Origin: Gemmatimonadota bacterium
Lineage (GTDB): Bacteria; Gemmatimonadota; Gemmatimonadetes; Gemmatimonadales; Gemmatimonadaceae
DNA length: 64,000 nucleotides
NCBI GenBank assembly: GCA_040388625.1
Contig: JAZKBK010000003.1
Span: 496,001-560,000, forward strand
Direction of reading: 5' to 3'
Positions 6,134 through 15,167 of the stretch are shown piece after piece. The notes beneath the pieces were generated by a model. That model ran no database searches. It was not told where the DNA came from and worked only from the letters and a program-made list of their open reading frames with translations. Positions within the stretch are counted from its first letter, which is position 1. Every line of letters starts with the position of its first letter. A program made the position numbers and the translations under genes.

Positions 6134-6673
6134 CTACGAGGACGCCGGCTTCGCCGCTGCGATTGCCGCCATGACAAGGAACATTGGCTGTGGTCCGTCG
6201 AGCGGTGTGTCGGGAGCACGCGGAATCTCCTCAAAGCCGAGACTGCGGTAGAATGCAGTACTCCGGTCGTCGAGCGAGTCCAGAAGTACACCGACCGCTC
6301 CGATGTCCTGTGTGGCTTCGAGACACCGCCGCAACGCGTCCGCTAATAGCTGCCGTCCGAGTCCTCGCCTCTGGTACTGCTCGGCGATGGCAAAATACCC
6401 GATGTAAAAGACAGGCAGGGGATACTTGGGAAGTGAGCGGGGCAACGGCTTTTGCAAGCGCTCACGCGCCACTTCCTTCGCTGAGAGCGTGTAGTAACCA
6501 ATGACAGCCCCGCGGTCTCCCGCTAATCCGGCGTCATCCTGCATCACAAATACGCGCGCGACGCCCGCCTGGTTATTGTCCCATGCGTGCTTCGAGAAGA
6601 ACACGTCGAGAGCGGGCCTGCCGCAGCAGAACCCGCCCTTGGAATCCGACTTCTCAATCGGTCGTATGATCAT
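6134..6673 (-). CDS. GNAT acetyltransferase toxin (TacT-like)
   Basis: 179-residue GNAT-fold acetyltransferase. The N-terminus has the toxin-type pattern FCCGRPALDVFFSKHAWDNNQAG followed by VFVM and VIGYYTLSA. Acetyl-CoA binding is suggested by YFAIAEQYQRRGLGRQLL (the Q/RxxGxG/A motif) and the C-terminal AFYRSLGFEEIP. TacT/AtaT-type toxins acetylate aminoacyl-tRNAs and are paired with an upstream antitoxin; here a DUF1778-like antitoxin lies 68 nt upstream in the same direction. It sits immediately inside the tRNA-Cys boundary, a common place for stability modules. Confidence 0.85.
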   Translation of the reverse strand: MIIRPIEKSDSKGGFCCGRPALDVFFSKHAWDNNQAGVARVFVMQDDAGLAGDRGAVIGYYTLSAKEVARERLQKPLPRSLPKYPLPVFYIGYFAIAEQYQRRGLGRQLLADALRRCLEATQDIGAVGVLLDSLDDRSTAFYRSLGFEEIPRAPDTPLDGPQPMFLVMAAIAAAKPASS

Positions 6674-6741
6674 GTCGTACGTCTCAGTACTGCCAGTGAT
6701 GTCGTCGGCATGCCACGCCGGCTGTCGACGACGGCCTGCAC

Positions 6742-7122
6742 CTACTCCGCGTAAGAAGGCGCGAGGTAGGCCTCGGCCATCAACGTCCGCAAAGCCTCAG
6801 TCGGCTGCGCGGGTGGTTGCTCGAGTATCTCCACAATCCGATCAAACGCGGCCGCATGAAGCACGAGCGGGCCATGCTCATGACGCGCCGACTCAAGGAG
6901 CGGCATGAGGAGCTCACGCGCGCCTTCCACGTGATCGCTCTCTGTAGCCATGATGTGCCGCCCAGCGCGAACCTCACGTACACACCAGTCGAACATCTCC
7001 AGTGCGTTGCGGAATAGGTCCGCGTTCCCAGTTGCAAGCAGCGACGCCAGACGCTGCGCCTTCTGCACCGTCGCTGCGTCCGTCACGCTGATGTCGAGGC
7101 GTTGTGTTGCTGATCGGGCCAT
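6742..7122 (-). CDS. DUF1778-like antitoxin for the GNAT toxin
   Basis: 126 residues. The N-terminal RLDISVTDAATVQKAQRLASLL resembles a ribbon-helix-helix DNA-binding strand and helix. The C-terminal tail FDRIVEILEQPPAQPTEALRTLM has the PPxP...EALR pattern that DUF1778 antitoxins use to wrap around GNAT toxins. The middle (about residues 45-90) is an insertion compared with the usual shorter antitoxins of about 90 residues. Gene order antitoxin-toxin and the inverted repeat upstream (7199-7217) support autoregulated expression. Confidence 0.8.
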   Translation of the reverse strand: MARSATQRLDISVTDAATVQKAQRLASLLATGNADLFRNALEMFDWCVREVRAGRHIMATESDHVEGARELLMPLLESARHEHGPLVLHAAAFDRIVEILEQPPAQPTEALRTLMAEAYLAPSYAE

Positions 7123-7652: not shown

Positions 7653-8849
7653 GTGCCTCTATCTGCTCCGCCGTCTCTCGACCATCTGGTGCAGCTCACT
7701 CGCGAGGAACTTTATGAGCGCGTGTGGGGTCAGCCGATCCGGTCCGTCGCCGCAACGCTTGGACTCTCCGATGTCGCACTCGCGAAGCGCTGCCGAAAGT
7801 TCAAAATTCCTGTCCCAGGTCGCGGCTACTGGCGAAAAATTGAGACCGGCAAGCATGTGCGACGGATTCCGTTGCCGGCGGTTGCTCCGACGTCGCAACT
7901 CTCGCAATACCCTGTGGTGTTCGACACCAGTCCTGTGCCACCGCCACCACCGACATCTACGGTAGTCGACGAGCAGATTGCTTTTGAGCGCGCGCCCGAA
8001 AACCGGGTCGTGGTCTCGGACCAATTGCGCTCACCGCACCCGCTGGTCCGGAAAACGAACGAAATCCTGAGTCGTGCGAAGCCATGGCCCGGCGAGTACG
8101 TCATTATGTGGCGCGAGCAGTATCTCGACGTGCGAGTCACCAAACCGAGCGTGCCTAGAGCGCTTCGTGTCATGGACGCATTCGTGAAGGCGTGCGAGAA
8201 ACGCGGTTGGATTGTGTCGCTCGGCACCGGTGATGACCAGAAGAGCTACGTCACGATCCTAGACCAACGCGTGCCGTTTGGGATTCGTGAAAAACTCCGG
8301 CAGCGCTCTGAGGAGGAGAAGCGCATAGAACGCGAGCGCCACTATCCCGCCGGAACCGTCTTGTCGCACTCCACGCACTACGGCTCCCCGTCAGGTCGAC
8401 TCTCACTCGTGATCCGCAACTCGTGGGGCCACAGTGTCCACCGGAGCTGGAACGAGACCGAGAGCGACCCTATCGAGAGGCAGTTGAATGCATTTCTTGT
8501 CGGCTTGGTGACCGTAGCGGCGGAAAATCGGGAGCGAAACCTTCGATTCCAGGAAGAAGAACGGCTACGACGTGAAGCCGCACAACGTCGTGCACTCGAG
8601 CTACAGCGAGAGGCAGCGGAGGCTGCGCGGAAAATGGAATTTGAACGCCAGGCGGCGGACTGGAACAAAGCACAGCAAATGCGCGAGTTTATCGCGGCAG
8701 TGCGCAACGCGGCGCAGCCACCAGACGCGAAAATTCTAGCGGGAATGTCTCGCAATGAATGGATCGCATGGGCTGAGCAATGTGCGCAATCGTTGGATCC
8801 GCTGCATGCTGACCATTCTCATGAAGATTCGACTGAAGATTCGACATAA
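7653..8849 (+). CDS. Conserved island-associated protein of unknown function with coiled coil
   Basis: 398 residues from a GTG start. The N-terminus (LTREELYERVWGQPIRSVAATLGLSDVALAKRCRKFKIPVPGRGYWRKIETGK) reads like a helix-turn-helix of a family often seen on genomic islands; I recognise the pattern but know no tested function. A Pro-rich linker (PVPPPPPTST) follows, then a central domain (about 150-290), a long charged coiled coil (about 290-345, EEERLRREAAQRRALELQREAAEAARK) and a short C-terminus. The neighbouring serine recombinase operon is convergent. Role in DNA binding is inferred only. Confidence 0.65.
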   Translation: MPLSAPPSLDHLVQLTREELYERVWGQPIRSVAATLGLSDVALAKRCRKFKIPVPGRGYWRKIETGKHVRRIPLPAVAPTSQLSQYPVVFDTSPVPPPPPTSTVVDEQIAFERAPENRVVVSDQLRSPHPLVRKTNEILSRAKPWPGEYVIMWREQYLDVRVTKPSVPRALRVMDAFVKACEKRGWIVSLGTGDDQKSYVTILDQRVPFGIREKLRQRSEEEKRIERERHYPAGTVLSHSTHYGSPSGRLSLVIRNSWGHSVHRSWNETESDPIERQLNAFLVGLVTVAAENRERNLRFQEEERLRREAAQRRALELQREAAEAARKMEFERQAADWNKAQQMREFIAAVRNAAQPPDAKILAGMSRNEWIAWAEQCAQSLDPLHADHSHEDSTEDST

Positions 8850-9030
8850 CTTTTCGTGCTTGTACCGATCAGACTCGGTGTTTTTCACCGGCGTTGACGT
8901 GGCCTTCATTACAACACAGATAGCCTTCTCATCCATGCTGCGCGTAGCTGAAGCAATCCATCATCAATACGATGACAAACCACGGCGTGATCGCTCGTTC
9001 TGTCCCAACGCATGCGGACGCCTCACATGA

Positions 9031-10911
9031 TTACCTGCGCGCTGGTGTCGATGGAGAACACTTGCCGCGAAGCCACCCTCGCACATTCTCATCGGTTGGA
9101 TCGTCTGTCACCGACCTGGGGCACCACACCAGATAGCTGAGTCGTCGCCCTCCGCGCCCAATGATCGACCCGATGCGGCATGGGATGGATAGTAGAGTGC
9201 CTGATATTCTCGCATCGCGTACCGCTGAGTATCCGGCGCGGCAGCCCTTGCGACGGAGGATTCCAATAAGGTCAGCCTTCGGGTAGAAATTGCCTGTCTC
9301 CGCTTCAGGATAGCCCGCAGCTAGTACGGCCGCGGCAATATCAGCGGAGGCATATGTGCTCCGGCCCATGTCTCGGGCGATATCAGGACGTTCGGAGTCA
9401 AGGGGAAAACCGAAGCCTGACAGGCGATAGTAGGAGCGACCAGTAAGATCAACCGTGCGCAGTGAGGGGTCTGCCCGCTGGCGATACTCTGTGGCTCCAG
9501 CTGGAATGCCGAAATATTTTTCGAGAACCGGACGCGACACAGCATCACCTGACTGCCAGCCAGCCCGCTCCTCCGATCTCCTCCGAGCGTACTCGGGGAA
9601 TCCTGACTCAAGCTCTCGTTCTGTCGGCGATATGAGAAGGGCACCGTCGGGCTGAACACATGCGGGTCCCAGGACACCGCTAAACACAGAGCGGCGAACT
9701 GTATCAAGGTCGCTTCGCACGCGTTCTGCGATCGCACCGAGAGTTTCTCCCGACGTGGTTCGTGGTTGGATTGACTCAAAGTACTGACCCAGTAGAGCGA
9801 GCGTGAACGCTGATTTCTCCGATATTATCTTCGATTCACTGCCTCGATTCTGGCCGGCCGTCAGCTCCCGAGCGAGAGTCTCTGGCGCTCTACCATTCTT
9901 AATGCCGGCCAGAGCGGCGGCGCGTTCTGGCTGCGATGAAACCAACCGCCGTGTCAGGACGAGTTGGCGAGTCGAGCTGCCGTTTGGGAACGTCGCTTCG
10001 ACCAGGAGTATGTGCTGGGCGACATGGAGAACTGATACGTCTCGTACCAATACACCGAGGAGTTCACGGAGGCGTGCTTTGTTCCCCGTCGCATGCTGCA
10101 ACAGTTCGGGCAGACGTGTCGCGATTGAGTTGACGATGGCGAGCCGCTGTTCCAGTTGTCGCGGAGTTTGCGCGTCCATGAGGATAAGCTGAGCCTCGTC
10201 GATGGCTTGGCGAGCGATCGCCCGCTGCTGGCGGTACCGTACGACTTGTTCTTTCCAATGGTTCGCTTCCGCGGCATCATCGGCGTGTTCCGCGGCGAGA
10301 ACTTTATCGCTGGCGGCATTGCAACGGTCTGTTGCTGATGCCAACTCGCGTTGGAGCGTTTCCACCTTTAGCTGCATAGAGGCAGTGCGTGTGCGCACAC
10401 TCCGGATAGCGGATTCCATCGTAGCCGCTTGATACGCGTCCGTTGCCATACGGATGACAACATCCTCTATTATTCCTGTCGTCTGAGAGCGATGGCGCGG
10501 CTCACGCTCAGTGCATCTGGTGCTCAGATAGAAGATCTTGCCTTTAACTTGAATTGGCGTGAGCCTAAGGCCGCAGCGACCACCCTTGCCATTGGAATGA
10601 CCGCACCGCACCTCGGCGAGCACCGCGTCGGGTGTACTACCATTACGAGCCCATGGCTCTCGTTCCGGCGTCCCCATAATCTGCCGAGCGAGACGGTAAT
10701 CGTCGGACCGAGCAAAACTCGGGAATGCCTCTGCCTCCCAGACGAGACGATCCCCATCTATTAGATCAGCTCTGCCGGGCCCTGCCTGCTCGATAACCGT
10801 GCGAGTGATAGGGGTAGCGGGACCAACCCGAACGGAACCGAGTTCATCCGATATCCCTCTAGCAAACGTACTTCCAGTGTTTACATCGCCTGGTTTATCA
10901 GTGTCAGACAT
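9031..10911 (-). CDS. Split large serine recombinase, zinc-ribbon/coiled-coil half
   Basis: About 626 residues. ATG at 10911 follows GGAGAGCCCG; an ATG four codons earlier (10923) has no ribosome site. An N-terminal zone (WEAEAFPSFARSDDYRLARQIM) is like the DNA-contacting segment before a recombinase zinc ribbon. A ribbon-like CGHSNGKGGRCGLRL...TRC follows (about 105-135), then a long coiled coil (about 160-260). Both are C-terminal modules of large serine recombinases. The last 300 residues (with ASADIAAAVLAAGYPEA) are not recognised. There is no resolvase domain; that is on the next gene upstream. The pair is one recombinase in two chains. Confidence 0.7.
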   Translation of the reverse strand: MSDTDKPGDVNTGSTFARGISDELGSVRVGPATPITRTVIEQAGPGRADLIDGDRLVWEAEAFPSFARSDDYRLARQIMGTPEREPWARNGSTPDAVLAEVRCGHSNGKGGRCGLRLTPIQVKGKIFYLSTRCTEREPRHRSQTTGIIEDVVIRMATDAYQAATMESAIRSVRTRTASMQLKVETLQRELASATDRCNAASDKVLAAEHADDAAEANHWKEQVVRYRQQRAIARQAIDEAQLILMDAQTPRQLEQRLAIVNSIATRLPELLQHATGNKARLRELLGVLVRDVSVLHVAQHILLVEATFPNGSSTRQLVLTRRLVSSQPERAAALAGIKNGRAPETLARELTAGQNRGSESKIISEKSAFTLALLGQYFESIQPRTTSGETLGAIAERVRSDLDTVRRSVFSGVLGPACVQPDGALLISPTERELESGFPEYARRRSEERAGWQSGDAVSRPVLEKYFGIPAGATEYRQRADPSLRTVDLTGRSYYRLSGFGFPLDSERPDIARDMGRSTYASADIAAAVLAAGYPEAETGNFYPKADLIGILRRKGCRAGYSAVRDARISGTLLSIPCRIGSIIGRGGRRLSYLVWCPRSVTDDPTDENVRGWLRGKCSPSTPARR

Positions 10912-10993
10912 CGGGCTCTCCATATAAGAAAGGAACTGACGGACATGGTTGTGGACTGCCGATCGGGCTGCTTTCGCGCTGCTATTCGCTTTG

Positions 10994-12109
10994 CTATTTG
11001 GTGGGTTCGTGGGACACGGATGAGTTGATTAACTCTATGGCCGACGGAAGCGGTGGTCGTGCGATCGCGATCGCACGACCGTAGGCCACGCCTTTTTTGT
11101 TCCGGCGTTGGCGACGAGCAACAGTCTCAGTCGAGGCAAGTTGATGCGAATAGACGCTGTAAATGCCATAGTACGCGAGCGATTTAAGGCTGGCCTTGAG
11201 ATTGTACCGGTCCAGCTTATTCCAGATCACTGGTGTATCGGGGTCGTAAAACGCGGTTTGCTTGATGTATGGGATCTGTCCGACGTGAGCCGTCGGCCAT
11301 CCGGGATAACCACTGTCAATTCGCTCGTACACGCCAATTAACGAGCGCAGCTCGAATAGCCACTTGAATCGCATTTCTAACGATGCTATAACATCGGCGT
11401 CAGGCCACGGCAAAATGTAGAGCGTAGTAGCATCTCGGGTCGATCGGACACGATGATCCGGCGTTCGATCCAGCCAGTGACGTAACCCAGCATTTTTCAT
11501 CGCCTCGACATAGCGCGAGTCTCGCGGGGACGCCCACACTAATCCTGTTGGAAGGCGAGTGCGAAAGGCGAGCGAGCGCGCTAGAACGAGTTTGGCACCG
11601 GCAAAACGTTCAATGCGTGTGTTGTTATCAAACTCTGCGCTGACGGCGTCAGATGCCAGAGACCGCCGGTCGCGTGCCTTCCGGGGATCAAGAAGGTCGC
11701 CATTGATTAGGAACAATACGCCGTGCTTTGAAGCAGCTTCCAGCAGTCGACCCTCGTCAGCGAGGTTTCGGCCCGTCCTGTCATAGTACTGAACAACAAT
11801 GAGGCCGACTTGGTTGTTAACAACCAGTGCAAGGATCTGTTCGAAGAACGGCCGCGGCTTGCGAGTCGTACCGGTTTCACCCCATGCCGCAACGAGTTTA
11901 ATCCAGCTTCTGGGAATACCAGCAGCATCTGTCTCTTCTAGCGAGAATTGAACCTGAGCTGCTTGGCTTCCTAGGTTGAGTTTCGCTTGGCGTGGATCTG
12001 ATTGGCGTCCGATAATGATGACTCCTCGAGCTGCCGCGGCGACTTTTCGCTCTTCCGTGGTTCTAGGGATTGGGTAGGCGAAAGTGGAATCAAGATTGAT
12101 GGTCGTCAT
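10994..12109 (-). CDS. Split large serine recombinase, catalytic half
   Basis: 371 residues from the ATG at 12109, which has GAGGCG upstream; a TTG at 12136 is less likely. The resolvase fold starts at residue 29: GVIIIGRQSDPRQAKLNLGSQ, with Ser37 as the predicted nucleophile and Arg35 beside it. QYYDRTGRN matches the conserved active-site helix region. A recombinase-like domain follows (RLPTGLVWASPRD; LKSLAYYGIYSVY resembles the NPxYxG element). It then stops, without zinc ribbon or coiled coil; these are encoded by the next gene 82 nt downstream. Active-site residues are intact, so a two-chain enzyme is more likely than a dead one. Confidence 0.75.
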   Translation of the reverse strand: MTTINLDSTFAYPIPRTTEERKVAAAARGVIIIGRQSDPRQAKLNLGSQAAQVQFSLEETDAAGIPRSWIKLVAAWGETGTTRKPRPFFEQILALVVNNQVGLIVVQYYDRTGRNLADEGRLLEAASKHGVLFLINGDLLDPRKARDRRSLASDAVSAEFDNNTRIERFAGAKLVLARSLAFRTRLPTGLVWASPRDSRYVEAMKNAGLRHWLDRTPDHRVRSTRDATTLYILPWPDADVIASLEMRFKWLFELRSLIGVYERIDSGYPGWPTAHVGQIPYIKQTAFYDPDTPVIWNKLDRYNLKASLKSLAYYGIYSVYSHQLASTETVARRQRRNKKGVAYGRAIAIARPPLPSAIELINSSVSHEPTK

Positions 12110-12211
12110 AACGCTGCGCCTCAATACGTTGGTCAAAGTGTTGGAATGGATAATGATTTTGGATATTCGAGTCTGTTGATCGCCGACATCGTCGTTTCGG
12201 GCGAAGTTGAC

Positions 12212-12400
12212 CTACGATTCTTCCGATGCTCGCAACAACGTGTCGGCGTGGCGTCGGAGGTCAAGCGCAGCGTCCAGGAAGGCACGCCGATCCGTATCTG
12301 CGATACTGCCTACATCCGCTGCAGCTTCGAGCAGTACGGCGCTAATGTGTCGCTCTGCAACCGGAATCAAGCTGATTGGCGGGGCAGCGGCGATAGTCAC
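12212..12400 (-). CDS. Small protein coupled to the recombinase operon
   Basis: 62 residues, starting at a GTG that overlaps the preceding stop as GTGA, with GAGG 7 nt upstream. Predicted mostly helical (ISAVLLEAAADVGSIADTDRRAFLDAALDLRRHADTLL). No family recognised. The 4-nt overlap with the gene before it and 102-nt gap to the catalytic recombinase half point to one operon; a recombination accessory factor is possible but unproven. Confidence 0.5.
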   Translation of the reverse strand: MTIAAAPPISLIPVAERHISAVLLEAAADVGSIADTDRRAFLDAALDLRRHADTLLRASEES

Positions 12401-12762
12401 GAAGGCGCCTCTGGAAAATCCTCGGTGCTCTTGTCCGATACCGCTCGGTCGTCGCATGTATCATCGACTCGCTGTTGCTTGTCCTCGTCGCCGCCATCTG
12501 ATAGATCGTCGTGGATATCAGACGCATTCGCGGGACGTGCATGCGGTAATGACTGGGTTAGGGTCTTTCGCTCCTCATGCATCCATCGTTTCTCGATCGC
12601 CTTCACTTGTGTACCGAGGCGCAGGAGCGCATCGAGGCTCCAAGCGTCACTCCAATCGGAGGCTAGTGTAGGCGCAGAAGCGACATCGATGACCTTGCTT
12701 GCGCCAACGGGGAACATCTGGCATGCGCGTCGATCCGGTGGGTGTCTGTATCTCTTTGGCAT
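12397..12762 (-). CDS. Small acidic-tailed protein at the head of the recombinase operon
   Basis: 121 residues from the ATG at 12762; an upstream GTG at 12801 is also possible. The basic N-terminus (MPKRYRHPPDRRACQ), a helical middle (DALLRLGTQVKAIEKRWMHEERK) and a strongly acidic tail (DDLSDGGDEDKQQRVDDTCDD) are visible. No family recognised. Another frame (12865 to 12647) reads plausibly upstream of it, so a frameshifted longer gene cannot be excluded. Translational coupling to the next small gene supports that it is expressed. Confidence 0.45.
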   Translation of the reverse strand: MPKRYRHPPDRRACQMFPVGASKVIDVASAPTLASDWSDAWSLDALLRLGTQVKAIEKRWMHEERKTLTQSLPHARPANASDIHDDLSDGGDEDKQQRVDDTCDDRAVSDKSTEDFPEAPS

Positions 12763-12882
12763 CGGCTCCCGTGACCTGTTCAGGTTCCACGGTGAGTGCA
12801 CCTGCGCGAGTGGTTACCGCGGCGCTGGGAGCAAAACGGATCTCGCAGGGCGTAGCCGTCGTCATCTGGTTGGGAATAACAC

Positions 12883-12910
12883 TAGATAGGCCGTACTTAC
12901 GGCCTATCTA
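12883..12910. repeat. Perfect 12-bp inverted repeat, 4-nt loop
   Basis: Arms TAGATAGGCCGT and ACGGCCTATCTA around ACTT. It lies just upstream of the small-gene/recombinase operon. There is no following T run, so a simple intrinsic terminator is not indicated; an operator or a recombinase site are options. Confidence 0.75.
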
Positions 12911-13257
12911 AAGTTGCTTCCAACGGTAAGAAACATTTCGGGTCCGCTAAACGACGGAATGGCGGAAGGCAAAAGATGTGGATGCCGTTGTCGTTAAATG
13001 ACTTACGGCTGGCGTTAGACTGATTTTCGGGGCCTTGAAAACAATCGATCGCGGCAGTGGGGGGTGCGCGTGGCTCGCGCGTCTGCTGCAATGGAGGGCG
13101 GAAACGCGAGTTTGGAGTGGGGATGGGAGCTCTCACGGATGGCCGTGATTCTTCGGACGCGGAGATTCTTACCGCGTCCGAAGAATCAGTCACCAAGTTC
13201 CAATCTCGGGAGAACCCCTATAGGATCTCAACCACCGGCGCAACTTGAGCTGTACTT
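12911..13257. other. Gene-free stretch between recombinase operon and integrase
   Basis: Roughly 350 nt with no convincing gene. It is bounded by two strong inverted repeats (12883-12910 and 13146-13188), and lies directly downstream of the tyrosine integrase, where attP-type sites are often found. Confidence 0.5.
13146..13188. repeat. Perfect 17-bp inverted repeat, 9-nt loop
   Basis: Arms TGATTCTTCGGACGCGG and CCGCGTCCGAAGAATCA. The loop AGATTCTTA repeats the GATTCTT motif of the left arm. It lies 70 nt past the integrase stop codon. It could terminate integrase transcription, although no T run follows on the minus strand, or be part of a recombination site. Confidence 0.8.
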
Positions 13258-14541
13258 CTACTTCAGTGGCTCGGGTGACGATATCAGTGCGCGAATACTT
13301 TCTTGCTGCAGTGGGCGCATGTGCGCCGGGATAAGTTTGTAGTAACCCATCGTAGTGCGGATGTCGGCGTGACCCATCGCCTGCATAACGATCTGGGCGG
13401 AGTGGCCGGCCCCAAGCCAGGTGGTAACGCGGCGGTGGCGCAGGTCGTGTTGCCGAAATCCGTGACGGATCTTGGCGATGCGTGCGGCGCGCATGAATGG
13501 CTTGCGAAAACACTGGATCCGATCGCCAGCCGAGATACCACGGTCGGTAGTGGTATGGTGAAATACCCAAGGCGATGTCAGTTCCTCGGAGCCGTAACGC
13601 TGATCCATGAAACGTCGGTGCTCAATAATCGCGTTTCGCAAGTGCGCTGTGATTGGAACGACTCTCGACTCCTCAGTCTTGGTATCGTGGTTGCCTGGTC
13701 GCGACATTGTGTGCGCGATCCCATTGACATCGCGGCCGGTAGCGATGTGGATCATGCCATCATTGAGGTCGAAGTCTTCCCAGCGGAGAAATAGCGCCTC
13801 CGAATCGCATCGGACTCCTGACTCGCTGAGGAGTAGCGTGTAGAACCATAGCATTGGATTGTGCTCGGCCGCGACTAGCAACGTCGATAACTCCTGATCT
13901 GAAAGGATCACTGGGTGAAATTTGGGAATCTTTGGGAGTTGCGGCATCGCCTTTGATACTGGGTTGTCGCGCCTTAATTCCTCCATCTCTGCGCGCCTAA
14001 ATACAAGGCGCAATATTCGTAGGTCCTTGCGCACGGTGCGCTCTGCGATCGGGGTCGCGCGTTTGGGGCGGTTGGTTAGTTCCTTTTCGCGGTCTTTGGT
14101 ACGCGGTTTCGCAGGTGGTCTTCCGGGCGTGCCGTTGGGATGGTAATTCCGTCGCCAAGTTGCGTATTCGATGACGAGCGCTGGTGTGACTTGCCTTAAA
14201 TCCGGGTTGTCGTGGGATGCGAAAAACGCACGGAGCGGTGTAAGAGAGGTTCTGTAGCAACGTTGAGTTTGCGGTTTCCGCGTCGCCAAATCATAGTCGT
14301 CGTAACGTTGTATCAACGACAGCATGTCAGTCGCGATCTGCGGTGATAATGTGCGGTGCTTCTCCGCACGCTCGGCATTATTGGTCAGTTCGGCGTACCG
14401 CGACCTCGCAGCTGCCTCAGCTATAGCGCGATTGGTTGTCTTGACGGTAAATCGGCAACGTTTACCCGCAACGCATAGCGAGACCCGATATGCGTTGCCC
14501 CGTCGCTCTATGCAGCCCGGCGTCTTTCGACGCCGGCTCAT
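13258..14541 (-). CDS. Tyrosine-type site-specific integrase
   Basis: 427 residues, full-length phage/ICE-type integrase. An arm-binding N-terminus (IERRGNAYRVSLCVAGKRCRFTVKT) is followed by a core-binding domain (YDDYDLATRKPQTQRCYRTSLTPLRAFF), here with a basic insertion (about 145-165), and the catalytic domain. Catalytic residues are visible: Arg in LSESGVRCDSEALFLRWED, HDLRH, the late His in GHADIRTTMGYY and the Tyr nucleophile at its end. It overlaps an excisionase-like gene upstream by 4 nt (ATGA). It is the natural candidate for integration at the tRNA-Cys site at 5.9 kb. Confidence 0.92.
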   Translation of the reverse strand: MSRRRKTPGCIERRGNAYRVSLCVAGKRCRFTVKTTNRAIAEAAARSRYAELTNNAERAEKHRTLSPQIATDMLSLIQRYDDYDLATRKPQTQRCYRTSLTPLRAFFASHDNPDLRQVTPALVIEYATWRRNYHPNGTPGRPPAKPRTKDREKELTNRPKRATPIAERTVRKDLRILRLVFRRAEMEELRRDNPVSKAMPQLPKIPKFHPVILSDQELSTLLVAAEHNPMLWFYTLLLSESGVRCDSEALFLRWEDFDLNDGMIHIATGRDVNGIAHTMSRPGNHDTKTEESRVVPITAHLRNAIIEHRRFMDQRYGSEELTSPWVFHHTTTDRGISAGDRIQCFRKPFMRAARIAKIRHGFRQHDLRHRRVTTWLGAGHSAQIVMQAMGHADIRTTMGYYKLIPAHMRPLQQESIRALISSPEPLK

Positions 14542-15167
14542 CGGTTTGTCTCCCGCATGCCACTGTCTGCGGTTTGTTGTTGAGCAAAGGGGAGAACATC
14601 TTCAAGCGGGGTCGTAATGCGCTCGTAGGCAGTAAGCCACTGACGGACCTCACCGACGATGAATACAAGTGCGCCACCGGTGTCTTTGCGAGATGGGAGT
14701 TGAATGAGCCCTGTCCGGGGGCTTGTGTGTCGGTAAACCCAATTGCGTGACTTCCCCAGCGCTGCGGCAAGTTCGGTTGCCGACAGACGCACCGACTCTG
14801 GCATAGTCCAAAACCGATCTCGGAGAGGCGTTTCTAATCGTGGTTTGGAGTCAGTATTGGAGACGGCATTGGTTCTGGATGGTGAGCATTCATCGGCCAG
14901 CCGCTGACCGATAGCGTCGAGATCATGTATCACAGCATCACACAGTGAGCCTCCGTCGACCATGCACCTGAATGATTGGAAGTCGGCACGCCGCCGTTCC
15001 CAACGAGTTACGCAAGCGTGTACCAGCTCAGCCGCGTGACGGTTTGCGTCGTCTGCTGACGGACGTTGATCGGGGACGTATGCGGCGGAGGCGGGCGTTT
15101 GGCCCTTCTTGGGTGCGGTGGTGGACTTCGGCTTAAGCGCATCTACTATCGGCTGGTGTTTTTTCAT
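14538..15167 (-). CDS. Helix-turn-helix protein coupled to the integrase (excisionase-like)
   Basis: 209 residues. The C-terminal 80 hold a MerR/excisionase-type helix-turn-helix: VRLSATELAAALGKSRNWVYRH, then a wing with LIQLPSRKDTGGALVFIVGEVRQWL. The N-terminal part is Lys/Pro/Ala-rich (KPKSTTAPKKGQTP) followed by a helical segment of unknown role. Being first in a two-gene unit with ATGA overlap to the integrase suggests it directs excision or controls integrase. It is longer than normal excisionases (60-100 residues). Confidence 0.65.
   Translation of the reverse strand: MKKHQPIVDALKPKSTTAPKKGQTPASAAYVPDQRPSADDANRHAAELVHACVTRWERRRADFQSFRCMVDGGSLCDAVIHDLDAIGQRLADECSPSRTNAVSNTDSKPRLETPLRDRFWTMPESVRLSATELAAALGKSRNWVYRHTSPRTGLIQLPSRKDTGGALVFIVGEVRQWLTAYERITTPLEDVLPFAQQQTADSGMRETNR

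Follow-up and report, generated by a model that had tools for sequence, protein, structure and literature searches.

Can a large serine recombinase (LSR) work in two pieces? This question is raised by four ORFs that lie together on the minus strand of a 64,000-nucleotide stretch of DNA (the window, that is, the whole stretch that was analysed) from a MAG of a soil bacterium, a member of the Gemmatimonadota. They are small ORF 1 (121 aa; 12397..12762), small ORF 2 (62 aa; 12212..12400), the catalytic chain (371 aa; 10994..12109) and the second, zinc/coiled-coil chain (626 aa; 9031..10911). The initial annotation had described a recombinase split into two adjacent genes, and our analysis confirmed this, the catalytic part and the zinc-ribbon/coiled-coil part being on separate ORFs. 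We also found, a point absent from that annotation, that a mobile element whose ends can be defined is made up of these four genes. We propose, with a probability of about 70%, that this is a minimal integrative element whose sole identifiable product is an LSR working as two chains.

The catalytic gene is listed as an ORF from 12136 to 10994, and its best start is the ATG at 12109, with an SD-like TGAGG. Its product comprises the serine recombinase catalytic domain, helix E and the core of the recombinase domain, matches Pfam Resolvase (7e-8) and carries Ser37 within the motif GRQSD. Across 20 aligned relatives, R35, S37, Q41, R86, R111 and R114 are invariant, so that, judged from the alignment, the catalytic Ser and Arg residues expected of an LSR are present and no relative in it has lost the serine. 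The predicted structure (mean pLDDT 73) could be superimposed with VIA-align, residues 16-324 on residues 1-291 of the SPbeta integrase (Z 15-16; rmsd 5 over ~245 residues), and it also matched the crystal structure of the catalytic-plus-recombinase part of phiC31 integrase (Z 11.5). In the model, the chain thus has the LSR succession of catalytic domain, helix E and recombinase domain.

The second gene is listed from the ATG at 10923. We prefer the ATG at 10911, because the first ATG falls within the SD sequence (ATGGAGAG...ATG). Its product received no family name from Pfam, PHROGs or NCBIfam, and neither plasmids, phages nor viral contigs yielded relatives of it. A profile-profile comparison (hhalign) nevertheless placed it collinear with residues 292-665 of single-chain LSRs (E 5.7e-10), starting just before helix alphaI, the last helix of the recombinase domain. 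The profile used includes fused relatives, on which the zinc-ribbon assignment partly rests; a profile of split forms only matched only a 38-column stretch. From alphaI onwards the chain comprises a zinc ribbon, an antiparallel coiled coil (~162-244) and a long C-terminal extension. Cys103, Cys113 and Cys133 of the ribbon are invariant, with a candidate His as fourth ligand, and the coiled coil was modelled at pLDDT 80-91. Outside the coiled coil the model was poor (mean pLDDT 48 for the whole chain), which is why a fold search with it returned nothing usable. Going by the profile match and the modelled coiled coil, the second gene supplies the zinc ribbon with embedded coiled coil of an LSR.

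The limits of the element came from a comparison with a second copy. By blastn, positions 8869-12909 match two other MAGs of the same genus (Gemmatimonadetes, isolates palsa_1236 and fen_1247) at 92.9% DNA identity over 4052 bp with sharp ends, and outside this stretch they have no similarity to the window, which places their copy at an unrelated insertion site. We count the two MAGs as one copy because they are near-identical to each other here. After refinement of the ends the element spans 8874..12897 (~4.02 kb), and with crossover at a CT dinucleotide (8874-8875 and 12896-12897) the window copy measures 4022 bp and the other copy 3991 bp. A repeat search showed that attR (12869..12924) consists of 27-nt inverted-repeat arms around the CT, with 16/20 positions symmetric, and the arms are close in length to the 25 bp of an LSR half-site (PMC3783163). 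At attL (8844..8905) a CT can be placed as well, at the edge of identity between the two insertion sites. The halves of attL lack symmetry, and we therefore place the left crossover only tentatively, as a best guess from that edge. When the flanks were joined, the two target sites had 17/30 bases in common around the CT (P 2e-4). A search for an empty insertion site in other genomes of the genus found none: neither the window copy nor the copy in genome G055 has flanks with a counterpart there, and the same was true, within its own genus, of the flanks of the element in G040, a genome of another genus. Apart from the four ORFs we recognised no cargo in the element.

Two neighbouring loci were noted in passing. 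Directly beside the element, 13258-15167 holds the gene of a tyrosine integrase (427 aa, Phage_integrase), overlapped by an upstream gene with an excisionase-type helix-turn-helix; this is a second integration module, unrelated to the serine recombinase element. At 6134-7122, judged by eye, an acetyltransferase-like gene follows a small DUF1778-like gene, which is how a GNAT toxin-antitoxin pair is laid out.

We searched the host family (148 and 179 genomes) and the phylum (395 genomes) for relatives and found split forms in the genus of the window (3 genomes) and in two other genera (G040 and G015). The closest relatives are split too, at 96% and 93% amino-acid identity, and no fused homologue above 95% identity with a frameshift between the halves was found. 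Pairs of halves recur in the same order at 31-35% identity in the two other genera. In G040 the catalytic gene ends and the second gene begins within a shared TAATG, and the start of the catalytic gene lies in an ATGA overlap with a small ORF; in G015 the halves are in different frames and 200 bases apart, a weaker case from a single assembly. By comparison, G095 encodes both parts in one chain of 947 aa, and G012 has an apparently frameshifted single chain. In a tree of the catalytic part these six, split and single-chain, form a clade (support 100/100), within which the split forms make up one group (84/78, or 98/95 without G015, its most doubtful member). A single origin of the split is likely, though not certain because the branches are long, and on these sequence comparisons the split is old. 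The recurrence of the two-gene layout in such distant relatives suggests that the enzyme is indeed functional as two separate proteins.

Members of the split clade came from Gemmatimonadota only, the search outside the phylum covering plasmids, phages and viral contigs as well as a narrow scan of genomes. No relative of the catalytic chain from viral contigs passed confirmation, and the three annotated plasmid relatives that we examined were ordinary single-chain recombinases of ~700 aa. Ordinary single-chain recombinases also occurred in two equal-scoring copies per genome in G185 (L037/L051) and G375 (L044/L052), which suggests recent movement of those recombinases. Just downstream of the second-chain gene of G040 (L017:5297-5373), lies a 77-bp sequence that has further copies, 83-95% identical, at other places in G040, G103 and G012.

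Comparison of the two element copies showed that the catalytic gene (dN/dS 0.11, p 1.6e-13) and the second gene (dN/dS 0.26, p 4e-12) evolve under purifying selection, with values of 1.4-3.8 in the shifted frames. The length of their open frames and a dN/dS well under 1 put both genes beyond what chance would give. It is against these data that a decayed or mis-assembled single gene, interrupted by a frameshift or a stop, has to be judged. Single-chain relatives do exist, and G012 looks frameshifted, as such an explanation would have it. We reject it, and consider it extremely improbable, because the identical break is found in independent assemblies and again in the distant split lineages, and because selection is strong on either side of it; the second gene moreover has its own start and ribosome site. 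The earlier view that this is not simply a broken gene, and that catalytic residues and ribosome sites are kept, was therefore borne out, SD-like stretches being present at both large genes. Programmed frameshifting is common in insertion sequences, where it yields fusion proteins, and it, or read-through of a stop, could also join the two halves into one. The gap in the window is ~80 nt with a frame offset of 1, whereas the TAATG overlap in G040 gives an offset of 2, and since one conserved slip site cannot serve both lineages we reject this route as well and rate it very improbable.

The two small ORFs are less clear. As the initial annotation had noted, they are coupled: the GTG start of small ORF 2 overlaps the stop of small ORF 1 as GTGA, and the overlap is kept in both copies. 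Both frames are open in both copies, and the sole indel, of 3 bases in small ORF 1, is in frame. An SD-like stretch precedes all four starts of the element. Between the two copies, dN/dS was 0.65 for small ORF 1 and 1.0 for small ORF 2, neither different from neutral. Neither ORF matched any family in Pfam, PHROGs or NCBIfam, XisH and XisI included. Although some of them look alike by eye, the ORFs upstream of the recombinases in G040, G015, G012 and G095 scored no better against them in pairwise alignment than shuffled sequences. Chance could account for the small ORFs, because an ORF as long as small ORF 1 arises in ~11% (~1/9) of random sequences of the same composition. A helper role is unproven, since we found neither purifying selection nor recognisable homologues; the ORFs may code for an accessory factor or one that sets directionality, or for no protein at all. 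In G095 (L020, around 7259), an upstream small ORF overlaps the start of the 947-aa recombinase by ATGA, so a coupled small ORF may predate the split, although no sequence similarity could be demonstrated.

The element can be compared with several known systems. With the single-chain LSRs (the phiC31, Bxb1, SPbeta and A118 integrases and TnpX) it has in common the catalytic residues, the domain order catalytic-recombinase-zinc-coiled coil and an att site, here attR, that is an inverted repeat around a dinucleotide. It differs from them in that two genes share the encoding of the chain, with the break between strand beta9 and helix alphaI, that the second chain has a long C-terminal extension, and that the zinc ribbon has three Cys and a candidate His instead of four Cys. 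We place the natural break between beta9 and alphaI of the recombinase domain because the catalytic domain and recombinase core are on the catalytic chain and the second chain starts just before alphaI; both genes carry extra tails at the break, common to the window and G040. Described LSRs are one polypeptide, and here two genes in different frames are found in three lineages. The domains are those of an LSR but the single-polypeptide architecture is absent, so we file the enzyme as a two-chain LSR variant. In the staphylococcal cassettes, too, one element carries neighbouring genes for two serine recombinases, CcrA and CcrB, but each of these is a complete LSR, whereas here there are two halves. 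The XisF/XisH/XisI system of the fdxN element of Anabaena resembles the locus in having an LSR and two small accessory genes; XisF, however, is one chain, and although no NCBIfam family matches the catalytic chain better, the score (19 bits) is far below the cut-off of 375. IS607-family elements are also small and moved by a serine recombinase, but theirs is a small one with inverted domain order (PMC4058570), in contrast to the full LSR in two chains here, and the score of 12.9 bits does not reach the IS607 cut-off of 110. In the open-access literature that we searched, which does not cover most subscription papers, we came across no description of an LSR that is split in nature. The nearest parallel is engineered: phiC31 integrase was cut artificially in the same beta9-alphaI loop, by alignment within roughly 10-20 residues of the natural break, and the halves by themselves were inactive in recombination unless spliced by an intein (Olorunniji 2019, PMC6868429). 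By analogy this failure counts against a two-chain working of the enzyme here, which has no intein.

It also bears on how many of the proteins might be needed. Since the phiC31 halves alone do not complement, the two chains here might require one or both small proteins to join them or to set direction, in a logic like that of XisF with XisH and XisI. In keeping with this, small ORFs precede the recombinase in relatives, and the conserved GTGA, the in-frame indel and the ATGA overlaps in G040 and G095 point the same way. A directionality factor would fit the action of phiC31 gp3, which targets the zinc/coiled-coil part of the integrase (PMC5814800). The near-neutral dN/dS, the unremarkable ORF length and the lack of significant similarity to the small ORFs of relatives or to XisH/XisI argue against such a requirement, and we regard it as rather doubtful. 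The initial annotation, which had envisaged a two-chain integrase that may need all four proteins, thus stands as to the two chains, and its four-protein part is neither supported nor refuted. Conversely, the catalytic chain might recombine alone, like a small serine recombinase, with the second protein a separate DNA-binding regulator of the element, given that the catalytic and the DNA-binding recombinase domain are both on it. We think this unlikely: the second gene is the rest of an LSR, is adjacent and in constant order in every genome with a split catalytic chain, and is joined to the catalytic part in one protein in the single-chain relative; the 27-nt arms of attR are also longer than the recombinase domain alone would be expected to read.

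We therefore return to an LSR working as two chains, most likely an obligate one. Our data show the element with its edges, the gene split, its conservation, the selection and the domain assignment; we infer the assembly of the enzyme, its recombination activity and any part played by the small ORFs. In single-chain LSRs, the reading of the outer half-site and the control of synapsis and directionality fall to the zinc ribbon and coiled coil. Here the catalytic chain would bind the inner part of each half-site, its dimers would come together as a tetramer, and it would cut at the CT dinucleotide through Ser37, while the second chain would come to it on the DNA and contribute the helix alphaI, the linker, the zinc ribbon and the coiled coil. 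The chains would associate without a covalent bond, through docking of the second chain's alphaI on the core of the recombinase domain with the help of the extra tails flanking the break; since alphaI belongs to the recombinase-domain fold, this would be the simplest way to hold them together. In the structure of the A118 integrase, an 8-residue linker connects the recombinase domain to the zinc domain, the two of them jointly reading a half-site of 25 bp, and the zinc domain with the coiled coil is thought to decide which sites pair (PMC3783163).

More tentatively, we speculate that nature could have a class of serine integrases built from two subunits, the zinc-ribbon/coiled-coil part being separate and exchangeable, its supply setting integration versus excision, and the small ORFs serving as adaptor or directionality factor. 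One view of LSRs is that the short linker between their recombinase and zinc domains contributes to the choice of which att sites pair, and hence to direction (PMC3783163). If our reading is true, a natural enzyme without a covalent link between these domains would make the linker model directly testable, and such enzymes would be ready-made split integrases for two-input genetic switches, for which the phiC31 version worked only with inteins (PMC6868429).
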